NCBI GenBank assembly: GCA_947184155.2
Contig: CAMXCT020001857.1
Span: forward strand, 124,001 to 188,000
DNA length: 64,000 bases
Source: Cladocopium goreaui
Taxonomy: Eukaryota > Sar > Dinophyceae > Suessiales > Symbiodiniaceae
Direction of reading: 5' to 3'
This document shows, piece by piece, positions 2,802 to 48,021 of the stretch; positions within the stretch are counted from its first letter, which is position 1; the number at the start of each line of letters is the position of its first letter. A program made the position numbers and the translations under genes. The notes beneath the pieces were generated by a model. It was not told where the DNA came from and did no database searches. It saw nothing but the letters and a program-made list of their open reading frames with translations.

Positions 2802-2986
2802 TAGCATAATGTGACCGCTACGGAAAAGATCAGGTCATCCTGATTCCTGGGTGAATCTACCAGCCACGGATGAAGCTGTGACATGGGTATACCGAGTATC
2901 AGTGGGGGACGTCACAACGGAATGCTGGAATCATCCCATAAAATACCTGAACTTTTCAGATTAGAGATAGGGAAAATGGATGAAAA

Positions 2987-3057
2987 TGGTTGGTGGTTTG
3001 GAGTTTGGAACATGATGTTTATGACTTTCCATAATATATGGGATAATCCTTCCCATT
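2987..3057 (+). mobile_element. Left half of a split TGGTTGGTGG foldback element
   Basis: This is the left part of the TGGTTGGTGGTTTGGAACAT family, ending at ATAATCCTTCCCATT. The missing right part starts with the same 15 bases at 13313 and ends at CCACCAACCAG (13372). Joining the halves gives a normal 116-bp element, so the LINE between them is the later insertion. Confidence 0.9.
3043..3057 (+). repeat. Left target-site duplication of the LINE
   Basis: ATAATCCTTCCCATT here is repeated exactly at 13313-13327. Its length is typical of target-primed reverse transcription. The final T is also the first base of the spliced leader, so the exact junction is ambiguous by one base. Confidence 0.9.
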
Positions 3058-3078
3058 CCGTAGCCATTTTGGCTCAAG
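3057..3078 (+). promoter_or_regulatory. DinoSL: Complete dinoflagellate spliced-leader sequence (relic, genomic)
   Basis: T, C and then CGTAGCCATTTTGGCTCAAG match all 22 positions of the dinoflagellate spliced leader, whose first base may be A, G or T. In dinoflagellates this exon is added in trans to nuclear mRNAs and is normally not next to genes in the genome. A genomic copy directly upstream of a 5' UTR therefore marks reverse transcription of a mature, trans-spliced mRNA. There is no GT-containing intron after it, as a true SL RNA gene would have: CAAGAACG follows. Confidence 0.95.
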
Positions 3079-3135
3079 CAAGAACGACACGAACTGCGAA
3101 ACTTGAGGGACGGGTAAGCTTGCATCTTTGAAAAG

Positions 3136-5103
3136 ATGGCAGCTCAGGAAATCACACGCAGGATGTTCCCAGACGTCACTCTGATTCAACAACGTGTGGC
3201 CGCAGCGTCAAAGATGAATCCTGCAGTGCCAGAGCTTGCGGAATTTTTGGAAGAACTCCAGGTCACAGCGACCCCAATGGATTCATACTCTCTCCCGGCA
3301 AATGTCACGAGGAGGTTGCCAGAGAGCTATTTCAAGAAGAAGTCGCTGACTCTCTTTTGCTCAGAGGCCAAGGACATGGATGACCTGATCGTGAATGTGA
3401 GGACATCGTGTTCACGAACCAGCTGACAAGGATTTCGGCTGCCAGCCCAGGTGGACGCAAGATGCCTGTCTTGGTCGTGCGCCCATATGACAGGCCAGAC
3501 GCGGATCTTTTGGCAGACGAACGATTTGTCGAGACAATTCGGCCCAAGGGGCAGATGGTGTTTGATCAGACTCCGTTCCAAGGACTGAAAGTGCTGTCTA
3601 GAGGGTCCGCCCTGGGAAACAAGATCGTGAGGACACGTCACCGAGACCCGACTTCGGAGGACAGCGCAATCTACGTGGAACTCGATTTCCTCGGTGACCC
3701 GAGCGACATGCGAGTCGTCATTCACACTGAGCCTCCTGATGCAGACTGCATCCGCGAATTAATGGCATGTTCGATTTTGGTTGCCAAGGACGTGGTCTCA
3801 GAGGCATTGGGCACGGAATGGCACGGAAGATTTGCTGGACGCCGGGGAAATTCGAGGCGCATTGGCAGACATTGCTTGCTTGCATTTCTGGTGTGCGCTC
3901 CTATATCCTTTGCATCTGAGTTATAATATTGTATGCTCTGTGCAAGAGAGTCCGTTTCTGGCGCTTGAGGAGGCGCTGAAGCAGCCGATTGCCGCGTATG
4001 AGAACGCACCGAAGCTGTCCGAAGTCCTTGACGATCAGGTCATTCCTGGTGCGGCAAATGCAGTGCTTTTCCAATTTTCGTTTGAATAAGTGCGTTGCGC
4101 AGGAGACACCATTGGGCCCAGGCGGGGCAGGGTCCGCCAGAGACCCTGATGACCGCGCTTGGCCTGTGCGGTCTCAAGCATTTTTCAGGAGTGGACTTCC
4201 GACCCCTCCGCAAGAAGGGAGCGTTGGCTTCGGCGGCCTTCGGAGCAATGGATGCCCAGTCCGAAAAATTGAAGGCCCAAAGTAAGATGATGCACAGGGT
4301 GTCCCACTTTCCGATGGAATCGATGATTGGCATGGACTACCTCGATCCTGCCTCGCAACCACACGTCGCCTACATCTCATGCTCTGCCAGGTTGCCGAAC
4401 CACAATGTCTCTGGATATGGACTTGTGCGCCTCCCGGCATCAGTGAATGTTGTGGCGAGGATCCTCGAAACCGCCGCGGTGCTGGATGTTTTGGTGACGC
4501 TCAAATTGCACGGATTTTTTGAAATATAAAGTGGGGCTCCCGATGCTTCTTTCCGAAATCAGGGCAGTGCACGTGGCAGGATTCAAGAGGGCCACGAATT
4601 CCTCTTTCCATTTGCTCACCACCGGCCTATCAGGCTCGGGGAGCAATCAGGTGTTTAGTAACCCTGGCCTTGAAAATTTGATCTCGGAACTTTTGGCCAC
4701 GGGGTTTGTCTTCGTCAGCAAAGCCTCCGAGGGGCATTCCCTGCGAGACGCAGGATGGCTCCGCGAAAATGCCACGTATGCGAATCAGCTGGTCGCCGGG
4801 TTCCTCACAGAATTGGCAGGAGGAGCGGCATTGCCTGATGATGTCTCGAAGGAGATCAAGAAGAAGCTTGCGCTCTCTGCAGCGGAGACACCTGCGTATC
4901 TGGCAATGTCACATGAATTCGAAGACCGACGTCACAGCGATGCTGCGCGCAGTATCTTGGAACTCAACGAGAGGATCGTCGATGTCGGAGACATCAGGGA
5001 GTTTGTCCAGGCGAATGCCGGGCTGATGGAAGAAGAAGGAACGCCGGCTGATCTGAAAGCGGCATACCAGGAACTCAAGGAATTCGCGGAGGCTTGCGCG
5101 TGA
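3136..5103 (+). pseudogene. LINE ORF1, frameshifted, family not recognised
   Basis: The ATG at 3136 is the first after the spliced leader, and the protein starts MAAQEITRRMFPDVTLIQQR. Coding alternates between two frames: frame 1 to about 3400, frame 3 to about 3820, frame 1 to about 4088, frame 3 to about 4520, then frame 1 to the TGA at 5101-5103. Each segment has sensible composition and together they give about 650 residues. The C-terminal part (from 4519) is acidic and helical. I see no zinc knuckle, coiled coil or RRM, so the usual ORF1 RNA-binding role is only inferred from position. The frameshifts may be decay or sequencing indels. Confidence 0.7.
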
Positions 5104-5171
5104 ATGGCCAAGCCCTTTCTCCAAATGTGCCCGAGCAGCATCTCGCATGACGCGCGCGAGAAAACCGGGCT

Positions 5172-5417
5172 ATGACGCGCCCCTTTCGGTTTTATGTGGC
5201 ATCATGGTTCTGTGATCACGACAGATTCCCCCGTACCAATCGAGGGCGTGAGGTCCTGCTTCCACCTGATCCTGACACTTGGAGACAAGTCTTGATTGAA
5301 AAGTGGCAAGACATGCTTGATCCTACAGCTGAGGTTTTCATTTATGTGATCTCCCCAGCTCCCATTGGAGGTCCAAGTGAAGTGCTAGCACAATCCCCGT
5401 GGCAATTTCCACTCTAG
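5172..5417 (+). pseudogene. LINE ORF2, N-terminal fragment
   Basis: It starts at ATG 5172 (MTRPFRFYVASW) and contains the block DPDTWRQVLIEKWQDMLDP followed by VFIYVISPAP. This matches my memory of the N-terminal region of long dinoflagellate retroelement proteins. The frame ends at TAG 5415-5417 just after a break in homology. The protein should continue into the segment that opens at 7107, so a 1.7 kb repeat block separates the two pieces. Function of this region is unknown. Confidence 0.65.
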
Positions 5418-6011
5418 AACTGGTGAACCTGTGCATAGTTTAAACAAAATTCTTAATGTATTGGAATTTTAAAATTGATGTCAGGCTAGTCATTTTATTG
5501 TTGGGGGGTTGGGCTAAGCATTTTATTGTAAAGGTAAACCCTGATGATTTTTAACATGTTAAAATTCCATTCTCATTTTATTGCAAAAACATGTTTGCTT
5601 GGAGCATTTTATTGCAGAATGGAACCAGTGTTTTTCCAGGAGCTTTTTATATCGATTTTATTGGGCATGTCATTTTAGATCAGCGAATTTTCAGGAATTT
5701 GAAGGCATTCTAAGGAATTTTAAGGAATATTAGGGAATTTTAAAGGAATTATAAGGAATATTAATGAATTTTAAAGGAATTATAAGGAAATTTAAGGAAT
5801 TTAGAGAGTTTTAAGGAATTTTAAGGAACCTTAGAGGAATTTTAAGGAATTTAAAGGAATTTGACGGAATTTGAAGGAATTCGGAGGATTTTTAAGGATC
5901 TTTAATGTTTATTTAATGATTTTTAAGGAGTTTTTTGGAATTTTAAGGATTTTTAAGGAATTTTAAGGAATTGCCACGAAAGAATGCCACCGTATTTTGT
6001 TGCTATAGAAT
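5418..6011. repeat. AT-rich filler with AAGGAATTTT minisatellite, part of nested insertion
   Basis: From 5690 to 5970 a 9-12 bp unit (AAGGAATTTT, with AAGGAATTTA variants) repeats about 25 times. The stretch 5418-5690 is AT-rich and unique. No coding frame is present. The region interrupts LINE ORF2. Confidence 0.75.
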
Positions 6012-6084
6012 GCTATTTAAAATTACTTTACTTCGTGTGATCCCCACCATGACATTTATACATTTTCTTACTGGCAAATCTTCT

Positions 6085-6515
6085 GGCATTCTATCTGACA
6101 TATCTTCTGACATTCTATTTGGCATTCTATCTGGCATATCTTCTGGCATATGATCTGGCATATCTTCTGGCATATCTTCTGGCATTCTATCTGGCAAATC
6201 TTCTGCCATTCTATCTGGCATATCTTCTGGCACTCTATCTGACATATCTTCTGGCATTCAATCTGGCATTCTATATGGCATATCTATCTGGCATATCTTC
6301 TGGCATATTTTCTGGCATTCTATCTGGCAAATCTTCTGGCATTCTATCTGGCATATCTTCTGGCATATTATCTGGCATTCTATCTGGCATATCTTCTGGC
6401 ATATATTCTGACATATCTTCTGGCATTCTATCTGGCATTCTATTTGGCATTCTATCTGGCATATCTTCTGGGATATCTTCTGACATTCTTTCTGACATTC
6501 TTTCTAACTTTCTTC
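6085..6515. repeat. 24-bp tandem array, copy 1
   Basis: Alternating 12-mers, ATGCCAGAAGAT and ATGCCAGATAGA on the minus strand, run about 36 times with point variants. Because 12 and 24 are multiples of three, long frames stay open on both strands (for example MPEDMPDR repeats), so open length is not evidence of coding. Confidence 0.9.
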
Positions 6516-6544
6516 TGCACATTCTTTGTCCCATATCTTCCTAC

Positions 6545-6785
6545 ATGAGGTCCGGCAGGGAACACTTGGCATGGATACCCGCGGTTGAGGTCCGGCAGGG
6601 AACACTTGGCATGGATACTCGCAGATGAGGCCCGGCAGGGAACACTGGGCGTGGCTGGTCGTGGTTGAGGTCCGGCAGGGAACACTGGGCGTGGCTGGTC
6701 GTGGTTGAGGTCCGGCAGGGAACACTGGGCGTGGATGGTCGTGGTTGAGGTCCGGCAGAGAACACTGTGGATCGCGGGTCGCAGT
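6545..6785. repeat. 40-bp minisatellite, copy 1
   Basis: About six units start TGAGGTCCGGCAGGGAACAC, with a 40-bp period measured between 6666 and 6706. The period is not a multiple of three, so each frame cycles through all three readings. A purine-rich GAC/GAG triplet tract follows at 6788-6915. Confidence 0.9.
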
Positions 6786-7106
6786 TGGATGAGGACGAGA
6801 GACGACGAGGACGACGAGGACGACGAGGACGACAAGGACGACAAGGAGGACAAGGAGGACGAGGAGGACGAGGAGGAGAGGAGGAGAGGAGGAGGAGGAG
6901 GAGGACGAGGCAGGAGGAGGCAACTGACATAAAATCTAACAACCCTCACCTGGCAGGTGGGGAAAAACACACTAAATATTTGGGCACCTTCACTCCAAAA
7001 TACACCTATCTAAAATGGATTTCCTGACCTCTTTTTAAAGATGCGTTTCTGAGGGTCTTCAAAATTGGATGAAATTGGATGATGTTGGATGCACATTCAA
7101 GCATGA

Positions 7107-10100
7107 ATTTGGTGGCAAGGCATTTTATTTCAGAGCCAGTTTTCATTGTTTTTGTGCATTTTAAAGCCTGAGGCCTATGCACAAAAGTTAGACCGCTCTA
7201 AAACTCCTGCACAGCTTCACATAATGAATTGGCACCCCGATCTAGCACATGTGTTACTGGCACAACACCAGCACAGAGGGTTTGTTTCGGCCCTCATCAC
7301 CACCATGGCGCCAGGTGATGACATTTGGGACCCACCCAGGGTCGCATTGAAGCTGCCTTCGGTAGTTGACAAAGGTCTTTTAATCCAAGAAAGTGGACTT
7401 TTCATGTTTTGCCCGCCATTCATGCCCAATACAGTGTGCACTGCCACACATGGGGATCAGCCGGTCGTGCAAGATGCTCTACGAGATGCCAGATCTGGAG
7501 ACAGCTTTCTTTGTGTTGCTGAGACTTTGCCGCTTGTTGGGTCTGAGGTTTTGTCTGGTTCTGACAGTTTGAGTGACATTCACAGCCTATTTGATGCAGT
7601 TGGGCGTGTTGTTACTTCTTTGGTCAAGACGGTTGTTCAGGCTAGCCACTCTTTCCCGGAATGGACTCAGCAGGTGGATCAGTTGCAGTCTGACTTTTCG
7701 TCTACCATTGTCAGTATTGAAACAAGTCTTACCCGCTTTTCTCCATGGTATCAGTCGGTCCCTGCTCGGTATGGCCGGTTTGCCTTCGACGAGCCCTGCA
7801 GTTTTAGACCTTTGTTCCTGCGGGAATGTGCTCTTGTCCCCAGCCAAGATGACTCGGTCCAAAGATCCCCTGTGAGCGAACCAGTGATTGGAGCGCACTT
7901 GCATGATCTGTTCAAGTCTTGTCACACCTTGGAAGTGCCTGTTTGGTATGTTGACCCTTTTCGGTTTCCTGTGTGTAAGCAATGCCGGTCTGCCAGTTTG
8001 GCCGGTCCCGACAATACATGGTTTGAAGCGTTGACTCTGCCTTGGTCGCAGGAAATTTGGCCTCAAGCAGAGGTCCAGGTTGTTCTGTTTCAAACATTTG
8101 ACAAGTCTAGCTCGACCGAAAGGCATACACATGTCATCTTATTGCAGCATTCTCTTCCGGGCCTTATGCCAGTTATGCTCAGTAATGTGACTCCGCACTG
8201 TTTGGCATTTCCTCGTCGGTGTGTGATTTTGGCCCCCATGGATTTGACTGCCTTCGCAATGCGGGCGACCCTTGTCACTGTCTTTCCTGAAGTCAGTGAT
8301 CGAGATGATTATGGTTTCTCGTTCCAATGTGGAGACACACAGTGGAGTGCAGGCCAGCGAAGGGACCATTTTGCAGTTACCGTGCATATTGCTTCAAAGG
8401 AAAGTCACGATGACTCCCCTGCTTTCTTGGATGACGGTCTAGCCAGCGACCTTCAGGCAGCTTTTGGGACTGATGGCCTATGCCTTTCTACCCCCCATGC
8501 GTCCAATGGTGAAATGCTGCGCACAGCAGCTGAGATCCCTTGTCCTGGCTTCCCAGCTTGATGCCGTTTTGCCTAGGTCTCGTCCTAATGCTGACATGCC
8601 CTTGGATGACCAGCTATCCACCCTTGCTTGGTCACATTCGGACGATTGGAGAGCACAGGTGTCCCAGTCCCTTGACCTTGCACTTTGTCCCGTTTCGCCA
8701 CAGCTGCCCTTGCTGCCTCAACCATCAACGCCATCTTTGAAGCTATGGCCGGGCCCATTGGGCCTTATGAGATTGTGGAAATTTTCGTTGATGGAGCTAC
8801 CTCATGTACTGCGGCAGGGTGGAGTGTGGTCTTGGTTGCCCAGCATGCCTCTTCAGCTAGGTTGCTAGGTACTCTTGCGGGCCCTGTGGTCCTTGGCCAT
8901 CAACATCCTCAGTGGTTGGGAGCGTCTGCAGTAGATAACATCGCTGCGGAATTGTCTGCTCTTGCTGCCGCTTTGGCGGTAGTGTTGCAGTTGCATTTTC
9001 CTTGCCCTGTTTTCATTCGCCCTGACTTATCATTGAGTCGACTTCTGGCTCAGGAGTTGGTTACCACAGTTTCTAACCCGGGGCTAGCCAAGCTCTGTCG
9101 GGTCCTTTCCTCTTGGGCTCCGTCGAATGTAGGCTTCTCAGAAGTGCGGGGGCATACCAACCATGCTTGGAACGACCTGGCCGACGCCCTGGCTAAGCAT
9201 GTCCTGACCCATCCGGATGACTTTCCTGCCGTTGACTTTGGAAAGCTGCATGATCTTGCCAAGGAACCGCACGACTTGGACTGGGCTTGGACTCAACACT
9301 TGCCGCCTTCCATGCAACATTGCTTTCCCAATTGTGTGCAGAACGCAGTGTGGCAATTTAGCCCCTCGCTTAGGCGGGTGGTTGCGCCGCCTGTCGAGGA
9401 GTCTCCGTTTTGTGCCCCTATCGCCTTTGCCTGCAAAATGGCTACCATTAATGTACTTGCACTCGACAATCTTGAAAGCCAGACTGAGATTGGCAGACGC
9501 ATGGGCACCCGCACGCTCCGTCTCGACCACCAGCTGCATGCTGCAAAATTTCATATTGTTGGTTTGCAGGAAACGAGAACTCTTCAAGGGCAATTTCAAT
9601 CGGAGCATTTTCACATCTTTTCGTCGGGTTGTGTTGGGCCTTCTGCCGCCCGATTGGGATGTGAGTTATGGTTGCATCGCAGTTTACCGATTCTGACTAC
9701 GCAGGATGGACGACCGGTGACCATGATCGATTGCACCTCGGTTGTCACTCATGCTGATCCGCGGAGGCTCTTTGTACGCCTCGAGCACGCAGCTTTGCAG
9801 ATCACCGCCGTAGTCCTCCACGCTCCTTGCTTAGGCAAAGCCACTGGTGATGCAACTGCCCCAATCGATGCAGTCAAAGCATGGTGGGCTGATACCTCTC
9901 AGATTTGGCATCAACAAGTTGACACAGAGTTTGTTTGTGTATTTGTTGACGCCAATGCCACCCTTGCTTCTGAAACTACGCAGTATTTCCAAGAACATCA
10001 TGCTGATTCAACTACGGCTCAGAGCTTGGTTTTTGAGGAGTTTCTCGTTGACCATGAAATGTATGCTCCCTCGACTTTTGCCGCACACCACAAGGGTCCT

Positions 10101-12431
10101 TCCTATACTTGGACGCACTCGTCTGGCAAACGTATGAGGTTGGATTATGTGCTTCTCAACAGCCGACTGTTTGAAATGGTTGCGACGTCTGAGACCTGGT
10201 TGTCCTATGATGGCACGTTCACGCATGAGGACCATATCCCGGCTTGTCTTGACCTTATTGGGTGGATTCCATGCCCTAGTCCCCAAGAAAAGGTCACCTG
10301 GGATGAGAATGCCTTGCTCGACCCACGACGTTGTCAAGCATTTCAAGAAGCCCTGGCCACTTTGCCGGTCCCTGCTTGGGAGGTGTCTGTGGATGCACAC
10401 TGTCAAATCTATGAAGGTCAGTATTTTCAACTTGCCAGGCAGTTTTTCTCCAAAGTTCCAGGGAGCCGCAAGAGACCCACCCTGAGTTCGGATACTTTGA
10501 GTGCAATCGCTTTCAAAAGGCATATTTTGGATTGCGGCCGCTCCTGGGAACTCATGACCAGTGTAGAATTCCGTGAGGAGTTAAAAGCCATCGAGAGTCA
10601 AGTGCGCAAGATGGTTACCAGAGACCTGCAAATCTTCTATGACCAACTCCTTGTGAAGCTGCAGGAAGCCGGACAGTTGCATGATCATAAGCAGATGTTC
10701 CGTACCCTGTCTCGCCTCGGCGGCAAGCGGCACAAGAGAAATGGTGTTGCAAAACCCCTTCCCATGTTGAGAGACCCTGAGGGACAACTGGTCAAGTCTT
10801 ATGTGCAGCAACAGCAACTGTGGCTCCATCAATTTGCGGCAATCGAGGCTGGAGTGCCGATTAGTCAGCAAGCCCTTCGTAGTGCAGATTCTGCGGGATT
10901 AGGGCTGGCTCTTGATTTGCCGGAAGCATGTTCTTTTCCGTCAGACTGGCAGTTGCAAGAAGCAGTCTCCAAACTCAAACGAGGCCGAGTGCCTGGTCCT
11001 AATGGGATCACGCCTTGTCTTTTGAAAGCAGGAGGCAGTGTCTTCACAAAGCAGCTCACCACCTTGACTACAAAGACAGTTGCGCATGGGAAAGAGCCTA
11101 CCTCTTGGAAAGGAGGCAAATTGGTCCCTTTATTTAAAGGGCGTGACTCCCCGCCTGACCCCCATGCTTACAGAGCCATCTATATTTCGGACCATACTTC
11201 GAAGCTCTACCACCGCATGTTGCGTCAGCGTCTCGAAGTCCCATGGATGAAACATATGGATTTGTTGCAGTTCGGAGGCCGTAAATCGCTTGGCACGGAC
11301 ATTGCCCACCACATGCTTGAAGCCCATCAGTTTTGGTGTCGTTGCCAGAAGTTGCCTTCAGCAATTGTCTTTTTTGACTTGCGTGCAGCTTTTTATTCGG
11401 TGCTTAGGCAGGCATTGACCGCTGTGGTTATTGATTCTACTACACCCACTGTCGCCTTGAGTAGATTGGGCATTTCACCGCAGATTTGGGCAGCCTGGCT
11501 TGATCAAGCCTCGCAGGATCATGCCCTCATTGAGGCTTCACCGCACTTAGAGAAGCTGATCCAGGATTGCATGACCAACACTTTTTTCACGATTGAAGGC
11601 TTGCAAGGGGTCTGTAAGACTACCCGTGGCACACGTCCAGGGGATCCCTTAGGCGATTTGCTTTTCAACTTGATTATGCGGTTGGTGCTGAAAGACACCC
11701 ATGCCTTCCTACAAGACCACACCAATGCCGTATGGATGGGCGCACCCGATTCCTGTGAGTCTTTTGCGGAAGGCAATGGCATTCCCACAAGTGCTTACTT
11801 CGATGTCTCATATGTAGATGATGCAGCCGTAGCACTGCATGCAGAAACTGTCCAAGAAACTGAGAACATGATTACCGGTTACCGCCGTTTAGTCAAGCAT
11901 TTTGCGGTTGACAATGTTTGCAATGCGTGTGCCAAAATCTACCACACCCGAAAACGGCTGATTGAGCATTTGCGAGATGCCACTTCCTGCCTTCAGGTTT
12001 TGCAAGCATGTTTTCCACCTCTTTCTGATGAACAGGTTGTTGCCATGGACGCTCAAGATCATGCTACCACACTGGATCTTCGCTCTCAGGGGTGGGGGGC
12101 TAGTAAGGCCCTCATTCCAATGCGCAAAGTTAGTGGTCCACTGTTGCCACCACCTGGTTCCGCTGGAGCCTTGGCGATGTTTGCAAAGTGGTCTGCCAGG
12201 AATCCAGTCAGTGGCACTGCGTACAACCATTTCCAAGGCCATGCGCTTGCGCAAGCCGAGGTAGAGCAGCCCCGTGTGATGCTTTTTGAGGAGGACATGC
12301 CGGCATTCATCTTTCAGTCAGGTGGTGGTATGAACCAAGGTGATGGCAGATTTTCAATGTTTGGTTTGGCACGTGAGACCGCTTTGTTGCACATTCGCTG
12401 CCAGGTGTTCGTGCATTTCTATTCTGGCTGA
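7107..12431 (+). pseudogene. LINE ORF2, main part: RNase H, APE endonuclease, reverse transcriptase, zinc finger
   Basis: The frame opens at 7107. It shifts out at about 8520 and back at about 8690, where ASQLDAVLPRSRPN and following codons lie in another frame. RNase H (about 8780-9200) shows FVDGATS, AELSAL, RPDLSLS and RGHTNHAWNDLADALA, giving the D-E-D-D set. APE endonuclease (about 9440-10260) shows GLQETR, FVDANA, RLDYVLL and HEDHIP. Reverse transcriptase (about 10930-11910) shows FFDLRAAFYSV, RGTRPGDPLGDLLF and YVDD. After FAVDN the sequence jumps to a C2H2-like finger, CNACAKIYHTRKRLIEHL, so the RT thumb appears deleted. RNase H lies before the endonuclease, unlike the usual LINE order. 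The active sites look intact, yet the frame is broken. Confidence 0.85.
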
Positions 12432-13236
12432 GCAAAGAGTTTTTCCAGATGGGCAGCAGCTTTTTGTGCTGTCAGTGGATATGTGCTTACAACGTGAGCG
12501 CGGCGATCTTGCCACATCAAGTTCCCTGTCATGGTGGATTCAACGCATTAAATCTGGGCAGATATGCGGCGCCGGGGGAGGACCCCCTTGTGAGTCCTTC
12601 TCCGCGGCCCGCTTGCTGGAAGGAGGTCCTCCCCCGGTCCGCTCAGGTACATGGCCGGAGGGCATCCCCAACATTCCGTTGCAGGCTTGGCGACAAGTGA
12701 TGGTTGGGTCGAGACTTATGCGTTTTATCCTTGACGTATTCCTTACGCTGGTTCTTGTTGGCGGTTGTGCCTTTATTGAGCACCCGCAGTATCCTTTGTG
12801 GGCGCGTGCCATGGACCCCTCCAGCGTATGGTCCAGTCGACCCATGAGACTGCTCAGGACCATTGCTGCGGTCGGTGTGACGAGTTTCGACCAGTGCATC
12901 TTCGGATGCCTGGCACGTAAACCCACTACAATCATCCATTTACGGCTGCCGTTGTTGCGGAAGACTATTTTGGGCACTGGCTACATGGGCAGGTGCCATC
13001 ATTTGGCTTCTCATCACGAGGCGCTAGCCGGCAGAGATGGTGCTGGGATCTTCAAGACCGCTAGGGGCAAGGTGTACCCCCCAGGGCTCAATAGAGCTCT
13101 GGCGAATGCCGTGGCAGACTTTGTACAGCAGACGTTTGCCGGCTCCCAAACTCAGACTCTACCATCTGAGTTCTTGGATCTGATTGCGAATGATTTTGTG
13201 TCCGATGAGATTGTACAGCCAGATTTCTATGGATGA
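12410..13236 (+). pseudogene. LINE ORF2 C-terminal domain, cytosine-methyltransferase-like motifs
   Basis: The preceding frame ends VHFYSG-stop at 12431, and the protein continues in another frame (EQRVFPDGQQLFVLSVD...) to the TGA at 13234-13236. Visible motifs are HFYSG (compare motif I, FSG), VLSVD, GGGPPCESFSAAR (compare motif IV with its PPC), FIEHPQYPLW, and CLARKPTTIIHL (compare the KPT block of some C5 methyltransferases). I recall this block as the usual C-terminus of such dinoflagellate LINE proteins. About 15 residues between HFYSG and EQRVF seem lost at the frameshift. A methyltransferase fold is inferred from motif order only. Confidence 0.6.
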
Positions 13237-13312
13237 GACATCGGACTGCACAGAGTAGCATCAGTTCCCTTGCATGAACCGAGCAAGACCTCCTTGCAGT
13301 ACGCGAAATTAA

Positions 13313-13372
13313 ATAATCCTTCCCATTGACTAACTCATATTTTTCAGAGGGGTAGGCTTAACCACCAACCAG
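13313..13372 (+). mobile_element. Right duplication and right half of the split foldback element
   Basis: 13313-13327 repeats the 15 bases at 3043-3057. 13328-13372 then completes the TGGTTGGTGG family, including the conserved CATATTTTTCAGAGG and the terminal CCACCAACCAG. Confidence 0.9.
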
Positions 13373-21046: not shown

Positions 21047-21152
21047 CTGGTTGGTGATTTCAAACATGGCTTTTATTTTCCATAATATATAGGATATATA
21101 ATCCTTCCCATTGACTTTCATATTTTTCAAGATGGTTGAAACCACCAACCAG
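21047..21152. mobile_element. TGGTTGGTGG-family foldback element
   Basis: CTGGTTGGTGATTTCAAACA to GAAACCACCAACCAG. This copy has the ATAATCCTTCCCATTGACTT centre, the same subfamily as the one hit by the LINE. Confidence 0.9.
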
Positions 21153-47908: not shown

Positions 47909-48021
47909 CTGGTTGGTGGTTTCAAACATTAATTTTTGTTTTCCATGTCATATATGGGATGTCATCCTTCCCATTGATGAACTCCATGATTTTTCAAGAT
48001 GGTTATTGCACCACCAACCAG
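47909..48021. mobile_element. TGGTTGGTGG-family foldback element
   Basis: CTGGTTGGTGGTTTCAAACA to TTGCACCACCAACCAG. A broken right end of another copy (48078-48112) follows. Confidence 0.9.

Follow-up and report, generated by a model that had tools for sequence, protein, structure and literature searches.

Anatomy of the insertion

In the window analyzed here, that is, a 64-kb stretch of the genome of the dinoflagellate Cladocopium goreaui (contig C1857, positions 124001–188000; all genome-wide counts below refer to the same 1.17-Gb assembly of 6,202 contigs), an insertion of 10,255 bp lies within a foldback repeat, opens with the dinoflagellate spliced leader (SL), and carries on its 3' side a truncated long interspersed nuclear element (LINE). 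Unless stated otherwise, the features are given on the forward strand. The insertion is bounded by identical 15-bp target-site duplications (TSDs), ATAATCCTTCCCATT, one at 3043–3057, where it ends the left half of the foldback target (2986–3057), and the other at 13313–13327, immediately before the right half (13328–13372). This 15-mer is part of the target repeat itself, since its third exact site in the window, at 21098, lies within an empty foldback copy. Indeed, the flanks without the insertion (2986–3057 joined to 13328–13372) form a 117-bp foldback with the same arms, CTGGTTGGTGGT-like and ACCACCAACCAG, as the complete empty copies, including the intact ones at 21047–21152, which contains the same ATAATCCTTCCCATT, and at 47909–48021, which contains GGGATGTCATCCTTCCCATTGA, the form found around two related LINE copies on contigs C2458 and C1319 (see below). 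The first-pass annotation of this stretch had described a 22-nt SL opening the insertion, the same 15 bases after its 3' end, and outer halves that rebuild a foldback element, and all of these descriptions proved accurate. The foldback family is dense here, with nine complete CTGGTTGGTGGT/ACCACCAACCAG arm pairs in addition to the LINE-split pair between 2986 and 59628 (at most one mismatch per arm, arm starts 86–102 bases apart).

The SL occupies 3057–3078. Its 21-nt core, CCGTAGCCATTTTGGCTCAAG, is exact at 3058–3078 and is the single site in the window, no other being found at up to four mismatches. Together with T3057, which is common to the duplication and the leader, it gives the 22-nt form DCCGTAGCC... 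with D = T, as compared with the dinoflagellate consensus in the accessible text of PMC6050394. An SL RNA gene at this position is ruled out, as no GT directly follows the leader. The leader-relic score behind the SL was 4, which is unremarkable.

Behind the SL, a stretch lacking LINE similarity (3079–5165) contains a broken coding sequence, with an ATG at 3136, a first break at ~3390–3402, later breaks, and a stop codon at 5101–5103. A tblastx comparison (E ≤ 1e-3) of this stretch with L062, L063, L064, L069, and L070, among them the LINE 5' regions, gave no match. Moreover, the open reading frame (ORF) starting at 3136 differs from ORF1 of the two full-length relatives on C2458 and C1319, whose ORF1s gave no tblastn match within the window element. 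The first-pass annotation had taken this frame for the ORF1 of the LINE, and the whole 10.2 kb for one LINE; instead, the insertion consists of the SL, ~2.1 kb of non-LINE sequence, a 5'-truncated LINE, and a secondary insert of 1,849 bp. Among database sequences, P0014, from a JGI contig no longer than 2,528 bases, aligns with 3136 to ~3632 only, with 87% and 85% identity on either side of the first frame break, and then diverges. Two ENA sequences, P0013 (on a contig no longer than 2,739 bases) and P0001, are 99% identical to the window coding stretch, and P0013 shares its broken frame, with identity at 170 of 172 residues; they probably represent the same copy in another assembly and hence are not independent support. 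Pfam searches with pieces of 3118–5414, with P0014, and with an ORF on contig C2646 (see below) gave nothing, or matches far below the cut-offs, and no family could be assigned.

The non-LINE stretch joins the LINE within a zone at 5128–5172, with LINE similarity beginning at ~5168, inside ORF2. The nearest relative, on contig C3263 (~75% DNA identity), extends ORF2 upstream through the whole 1.2 kb fetched. The border lies ~25–65 nt 3' of the stop codon, and no poly(A) is found there. The first retained part of ORF2 (RPFRFYV...GGPSEVLA) occupies 5168–5392, and ORF2 continues at 7242–13236 with an endonuclease-like region (~9495–10169), a reverse transcriptase (RT; ~11160–11828), and a C-terminal domain with the motif GGPPCES. 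The continued frame is broken by stops or a frameshift and by an internal deletion of ~1 kb at ~11868. Both enzymatic regions were recognized by Pfam below the curated cut-offs (RVT_1, E 3.6e-06, 27.3 bits against 29.6; Exo_endo_phos, E 4.4e-04, 20.5 bits against 24.5), and they stand in one ORF in the order expected of a LINE with an apurinic/apyrimidinic endonuclease (APE). A 3' untranslated region (UTR) of 76 nt without poly(A) follows at 13237–13312.

Leader and target in related copies

A genome search with the RT ORF gave 38 matches at at least 37 loci (37 scored of 1,514 candidates), and the LINE family is larger than these 37. The 5' ends of five copies were examined (window, C2458, C1319, C3263, and C5108), and all five start at one and the same foldback position, give or take a few bases, as expected of a target-specific LINE. 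When the upstream flanks (~1.5 kb) of a further 29 loci were scanned for the target motif, C5108 alone showed it. The foldback family is the landing site of this LINE. Short TSDs, variable 5' ends, and a fixed 3' end were observed, with exact TSDs in three of the four copies with both ends examined (15, 14, and 13 bp). The 3' ends of C2458 and C1319 adjoin the same target, with TSDs of 14 bp (ATGTCATCCTTCCC) and 13 bp (TGTCATCCTTCCC), respectively, and their 3'UTRs (88 and 78 nt) also lack poly(A). Target-primed reverse transcription from the 3' end of a LINE, the established mechanism of these elements, accounts for 5' truncation and TSDs as well as for the 3' ends that the copies have in common.

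The 21-nt SL core occurs exactly at 172 sites in the genome (81 and 91 on the two strands; reversed control, 0). A junction pattern consisting of ATCCTTCCC, 0–8 bases, and the exact core matched four times in the genome (control, 0), namely in the window and on C2458, C1319, and C2646, and a foldback left half similar to that of the window precedes the SL in the latter three as well. At all four exact junctions, the target repeat, rather than other non-leader DNA shared between copies, stands directly before the leader. The core is preceded by A or T, in keeping with the variable first base of the leader; this arrangement would be explained if a leader-capped RNA was reverse transcribed all the way to its 5' end. 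Among 100 listed SL sites, which reach contig C3001, a same-strand SL lies upstream of 3 of the 16 LINE loci on contigs up to C3001, again the window, C2458, and C1319.

At C2458 and C1319, the 5' junction consists of CATATATGGGATGTCATCCTTCCC, one or two C (CC or C), a single A or T, and the SL, behind which a 5'UTR and ORF1 follow. The ORF1s of these copies share 31% identity over 431 amino acids (E 5e-39), and a zinc-finger-like motif is visible by eye in both. As the RT ORFs of C2458 and C1319 are 73% and 46% identical to that of the window, the leader and the target are common to copies across a deep divergence. Behind the SL of C1319 comes GTGTTTGGCTCAGG, which agrees with the 3' end of the SL at 10 of 12 positions, a score of at least 10 being reached in 1 of 5,000 random placements; such scores were also found at 8 of 30 other genomic SL sites, as expected for retrogenes with relics. 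The GTGTTTGGCTCAGG is likely an older leader relic. The score behind the C2458 SL was 8, which is unremarkable. Tandem fragments resembling U2 snRNA (Rfam RF00004, 83.4 and 65.9 bits) lie between the SL and the LINE 5'UTR of C2458, at 211–544 of the fetched sequence L062; they are possibly promoter monomers or the product of a template switch.

The fourth junction, on C2646 (L070, C2646:347900–348680, 781 bases, with fewer than 700 bases behind the SL), shows the target, then T and the SL, and then an unrelated non-LINE coding sequence beginning MAGILGLVNLLG. It may represent another chimera, or else a simple retrocopy that the enzyme of this LINE inserted.

Proposed origin of the leader-bearing insertion

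Collectively, these results suggest that the window copy is probably a chimera of an SL-capped mRNA and a LINE, made by a target-specific LINE whose own RNA can presumably be trans-spliced. The site-specific LINE enzyme would cut one spot, CATCCTTCCC(ATT), in the abundant foldback and prime reverse transcription from the 3' end of its RNA, as the boundaries of the copies suggest. The LINE RNA could itself be an SL-capped mRNA, so that copies reaching its 5' end terminate in the leader, as the DNA of C2458 and C1319 does. In the window copy, the enzyme would have left the LINE RNA inside ORF2, switched to another SL-capped mRNA (2.1 kb), copied it to its 5' end, and been followed by sealing into the target with the 15-bp duplication. 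A non-LINE sequence is joined to the 5' end of the truncated LINE inside one TSD, as in template-switch chimeras, and the order of SL, mRNA, and truncated LINE within that TSD would result from such a switch. The best reading of 3079–5165 is that of a retrocopy of an SL-capped mRNA, the SL being the evidence that an RNA was copied; an SL would be expected of a leader-bearing (DinoSL) retrogene and is present, and P0014 speaks for a coding sequence in the first part. Most likely, then, the leader in the window came with this other mRNA and not with the LINE RNA. The anatomy of the window copy is firm, and trans-splicing of the LINE RNA is the simplest reading of C2458 and C1319, well supported by their DNA. 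The first-pass proposal that the LINE RNA was trans-spliced and copied to its 5' end thus retains the SL-bearing RNA end within TSDs and gains C2458 and C1319, but loses its starting point, as the window leader sits on non-LINE sequence. Trans-splicing at the RNA level, as favored for LINE-1 mRNA chimeras, may also have produced the chimera of the window copy.

Several observations weigh against this interpretation. The SL start is not universal in the family: the exact SL-target junction is found at 3 of the 37 scored loci, and an exact SL at three of the five examined 5' ends, that of the window being followed by non-LINE sequence. At C3263, the nearest relative, the first bases after the target are AAGGTTTTGGATCGAG, with no SL and at most a CAAG-like remnant; this copy lies in the same foldback between GGGATGTCATCTCAAC on the 5' side and ATGTCATCCCAACC on the 3' side, an imperfect duplication with 12 of 13 bases alike. 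C5108 is 5'-truncated, with ORF2 joined directly to the target and no SL. The first-pass annotation had looked to other copies of the leader-proximal sequence; a DNA search with 3058–3300 found the window as the sole match in the assembly, and the family 5' ends bore out the expected leader at C2458 and C1319 but not at C3263 and C5108. The U2-like repeats behind the C2458 SL mean that the leader there may have another history. Finally, no parent of 4498–5100 was found in the assembly, and P0014 reaches only ~3632; 3079–5165 is taken as one mRNA from its frames and the SL. For comparison, the shares of retrogenes with a parent found are 6.4 and 9.8%, as quoted in the accessible text of PMC6050394.

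The leaders at LINE 5' ends could also derive from template switching onto SL RNA or SL mRNAs instead of trans-splicing of the LINE RNA. The non-LINE sequence behind the SL, both in the window and in the stretch examined at C2646, and the U2-like repeats at C2458 would fit such an origin, which we nevertheless regard as rather unlikely: at C1319, the SL exon is complete to its 3' end and stands directly before the LINE 5'UTR, with the SL-like relic next to it. It also appears unlikely, and somewhat more so, that a host gene carried a 5'-truncated LINE in its 3'UTR and that the trans-spliced host-LINE mRNA was retroposed as a unit, in the manner of a 5' transduction. The position of the border shortly past the stop codon and the lack of poly(A) there agree with read-through of this kind. 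However, a resident LINE of this family should be preceded by a left half of the foldback, as at C5108, and no foldback half is found at 5081–5200, between the stop codon and the LINE, which makes residence in a 3'UTR less likely; nor was any donor carrying 4498–5100 found in the assembly.

That the entire 10 kb is a single LINE with its own trans-spliced RNA, 3136–5100 being its ORF1, seems improbable. The SL at the start, the TSDs enclosing the whole unit, and the SL at the start of two further LINE copies, C2458 and C1319, all accord with it, but these two carry a different ORF1 that is unmatched in the window element, and 3079–5165 has no counterpart in the LINE 5' regions compared, while its first part is matched by P0014. 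We consider it highly improbable that an unrelated SL retrogene and a LINE were joined by an assembly error or a deletion. The 5' part is indeed single-copy in the assembly as far as searched; however, the exact 15-bp TSD encloses both parts with both target halves in place, and P0013, on a separate database contig, encodes the same broken frame, so that that part recurs. Beyond the favored chimera, a broader proposal has about an even chance of being correct: a long-lived LINE lineage may rely on the host leader for its 5' end in each cycle, with old leaders decaying into 5'UTR relics, and its enzyme may also capture leader-capped host mRNAs, alone or fused to the LINE, and so make some of the retrogenes.

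Relation to known systems

Target-specific LINEs such as R1 and Tx1 insert at one site in a repeated sequence and have an APE-type endonuclease. The present LINE resembles them in both respects and differs in its target, a dinoflagellate foldback of ~106–117 bp. The comparisons that follow refer to the accessible portions of the papers cited. Retrogenes bearing the SL are well known in dinoflagellates (PMC6050394, PMC12014239, PMC3229502, PMC7245778, PMC8045281), where they are also described as recycled processed cDNAs (PMC6050394, citing Slamovits and Keeling 2008). As in these retrogenes, an SL or its relic here opens what is read as the retroposed copy of an mRNA, multiple relics counting the rounds; unlike in these retrogenes, which are genes (PMC6050394), the SL also marks where the LINE itself begins in two copies and opens a probable mRNA-LINE chimera in the window, and the TSDs indicate the enzyme and the target. 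Chimeras of RNA and LINE sequence attributed to template switching are reported from Magnaporthe, among them one that has 14-bp repeats (PMC2104539), and RNA-LINE-1 chimeras in PMC13174262, which favors RNA-level trans-splicing for those with mRNA. They share with the window copy a 5' part from a cellular RNA, a 3' LINE fragment, and a single TSD around both; in contrast to them, the 5' part in the window ends in a trans-spliced leader, so that the RNA 5' end is readable from the DNA, and the LINE is target-specific.

Host SLs have been found on transposon transcripts of Hydra, as reads (PMC12220107), and SL-containing retrotransposon genes in Schistosoma, considered by their authors as possible assembly chimeras (PMC5832876). 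The present case is similar in that an SL is associated with transposon RNA or genes, and different in that genomic copies with the leader, TSD, and common target are seen in divergent copies. Furthermore, a dinoflagellate RNA virus carries the SL, and SLs lie near its endogenous copies (PMC10235124). The dinoflagellate SymbioLINE-Dnmt (PMC5890265) likewise combines an endonuclease with an RT; unlike it, relatives of the window LINE have frames of up to 4,187 amino acids over the RT, and the DNA methylase domain (PF00145) that marks SymbioLINE-Dnmt, in an ORF upstream of the RT ORF, gave no Pfam match in the window ORFs scanned. No description of a dinoflagellate LINE starting with the SL at its TSD was found in the literature searched, in which subscription papers were mostly outside the coverage.

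Dinoflagellate genomes contain thousands of leader-tagged retrogenes (PMC6050394), for which the accessible text of PMC12014239 names retrotransposons only as likely makers. Copies that combine the leader, the LINE 3' end, and the common target link LINEs to these retrogenes in a testable manner, and a leader start makes it possible to tell, with no more than the DNA, that the mRNA was reverse transcribed as far as its 5' end. If the LINE indeed borrows the host leader, it would need no cap signal of its own, and the location of its promoter would become a question.

Other features of the LINE

The 1,849-bp secondary insertion into ORF2 (5393–7241, without assigned strand) is flanked by copies of the 8-bp TSD CTAGCACA at 5385–5392, where the first retained part of ORF2 ends, and 7242–7249, and has imperfect terminal inverted repeats. 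A database relative, P0004 (577 amino acids), has an unbroken ORF across the region split at 5385–7249; this continuous ORF and the 8-bp TSD rule out a LINE intron or spacer at 5393–7241. The right end of the insert recurs in P0007–P0011 with 76–98% identity over 45–49 residues, and at least four tandem-repeat arrays lie within it. It may have entered the LINE after landing or have been present already in its source.

The ~1-kb deletion at ~11868, defined against relatives that align on both sides, lies between the RT and a zinc-finger-like region; a spliced intron was rejected there, the borders being judged by eye as not intron-like. A search of the PDB sequences with the RT ORF and a search of a viral-contig collection for RT relatives gave no match. 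In a search for the SL among viral contigs, one contig of the IMG/VR collection (L068) was found to contain a pair of minus-strand spliced leaders with a spacing of 147 bases. The C-terminal domain, at 12334–13233 in the window and also in L065, L066, and L067, is conserved, with the motifs GGPPCE(S/T)(F/Y) and EHPQ(Y/W/F)P; that of the window copy has no Pfam match. The GGPPCE and EHPQ motifs bear what we take to be a faint resemblance to motifs of cytosine methyltransferases. In three relatives, L003, L006, and L024, the open frames over the RT span 3,965–4,187 amino acids, which is very long for a LINE ORF2, and hold repeated 'WYVDH...' units of ~100 amino acids, recognized by eye.

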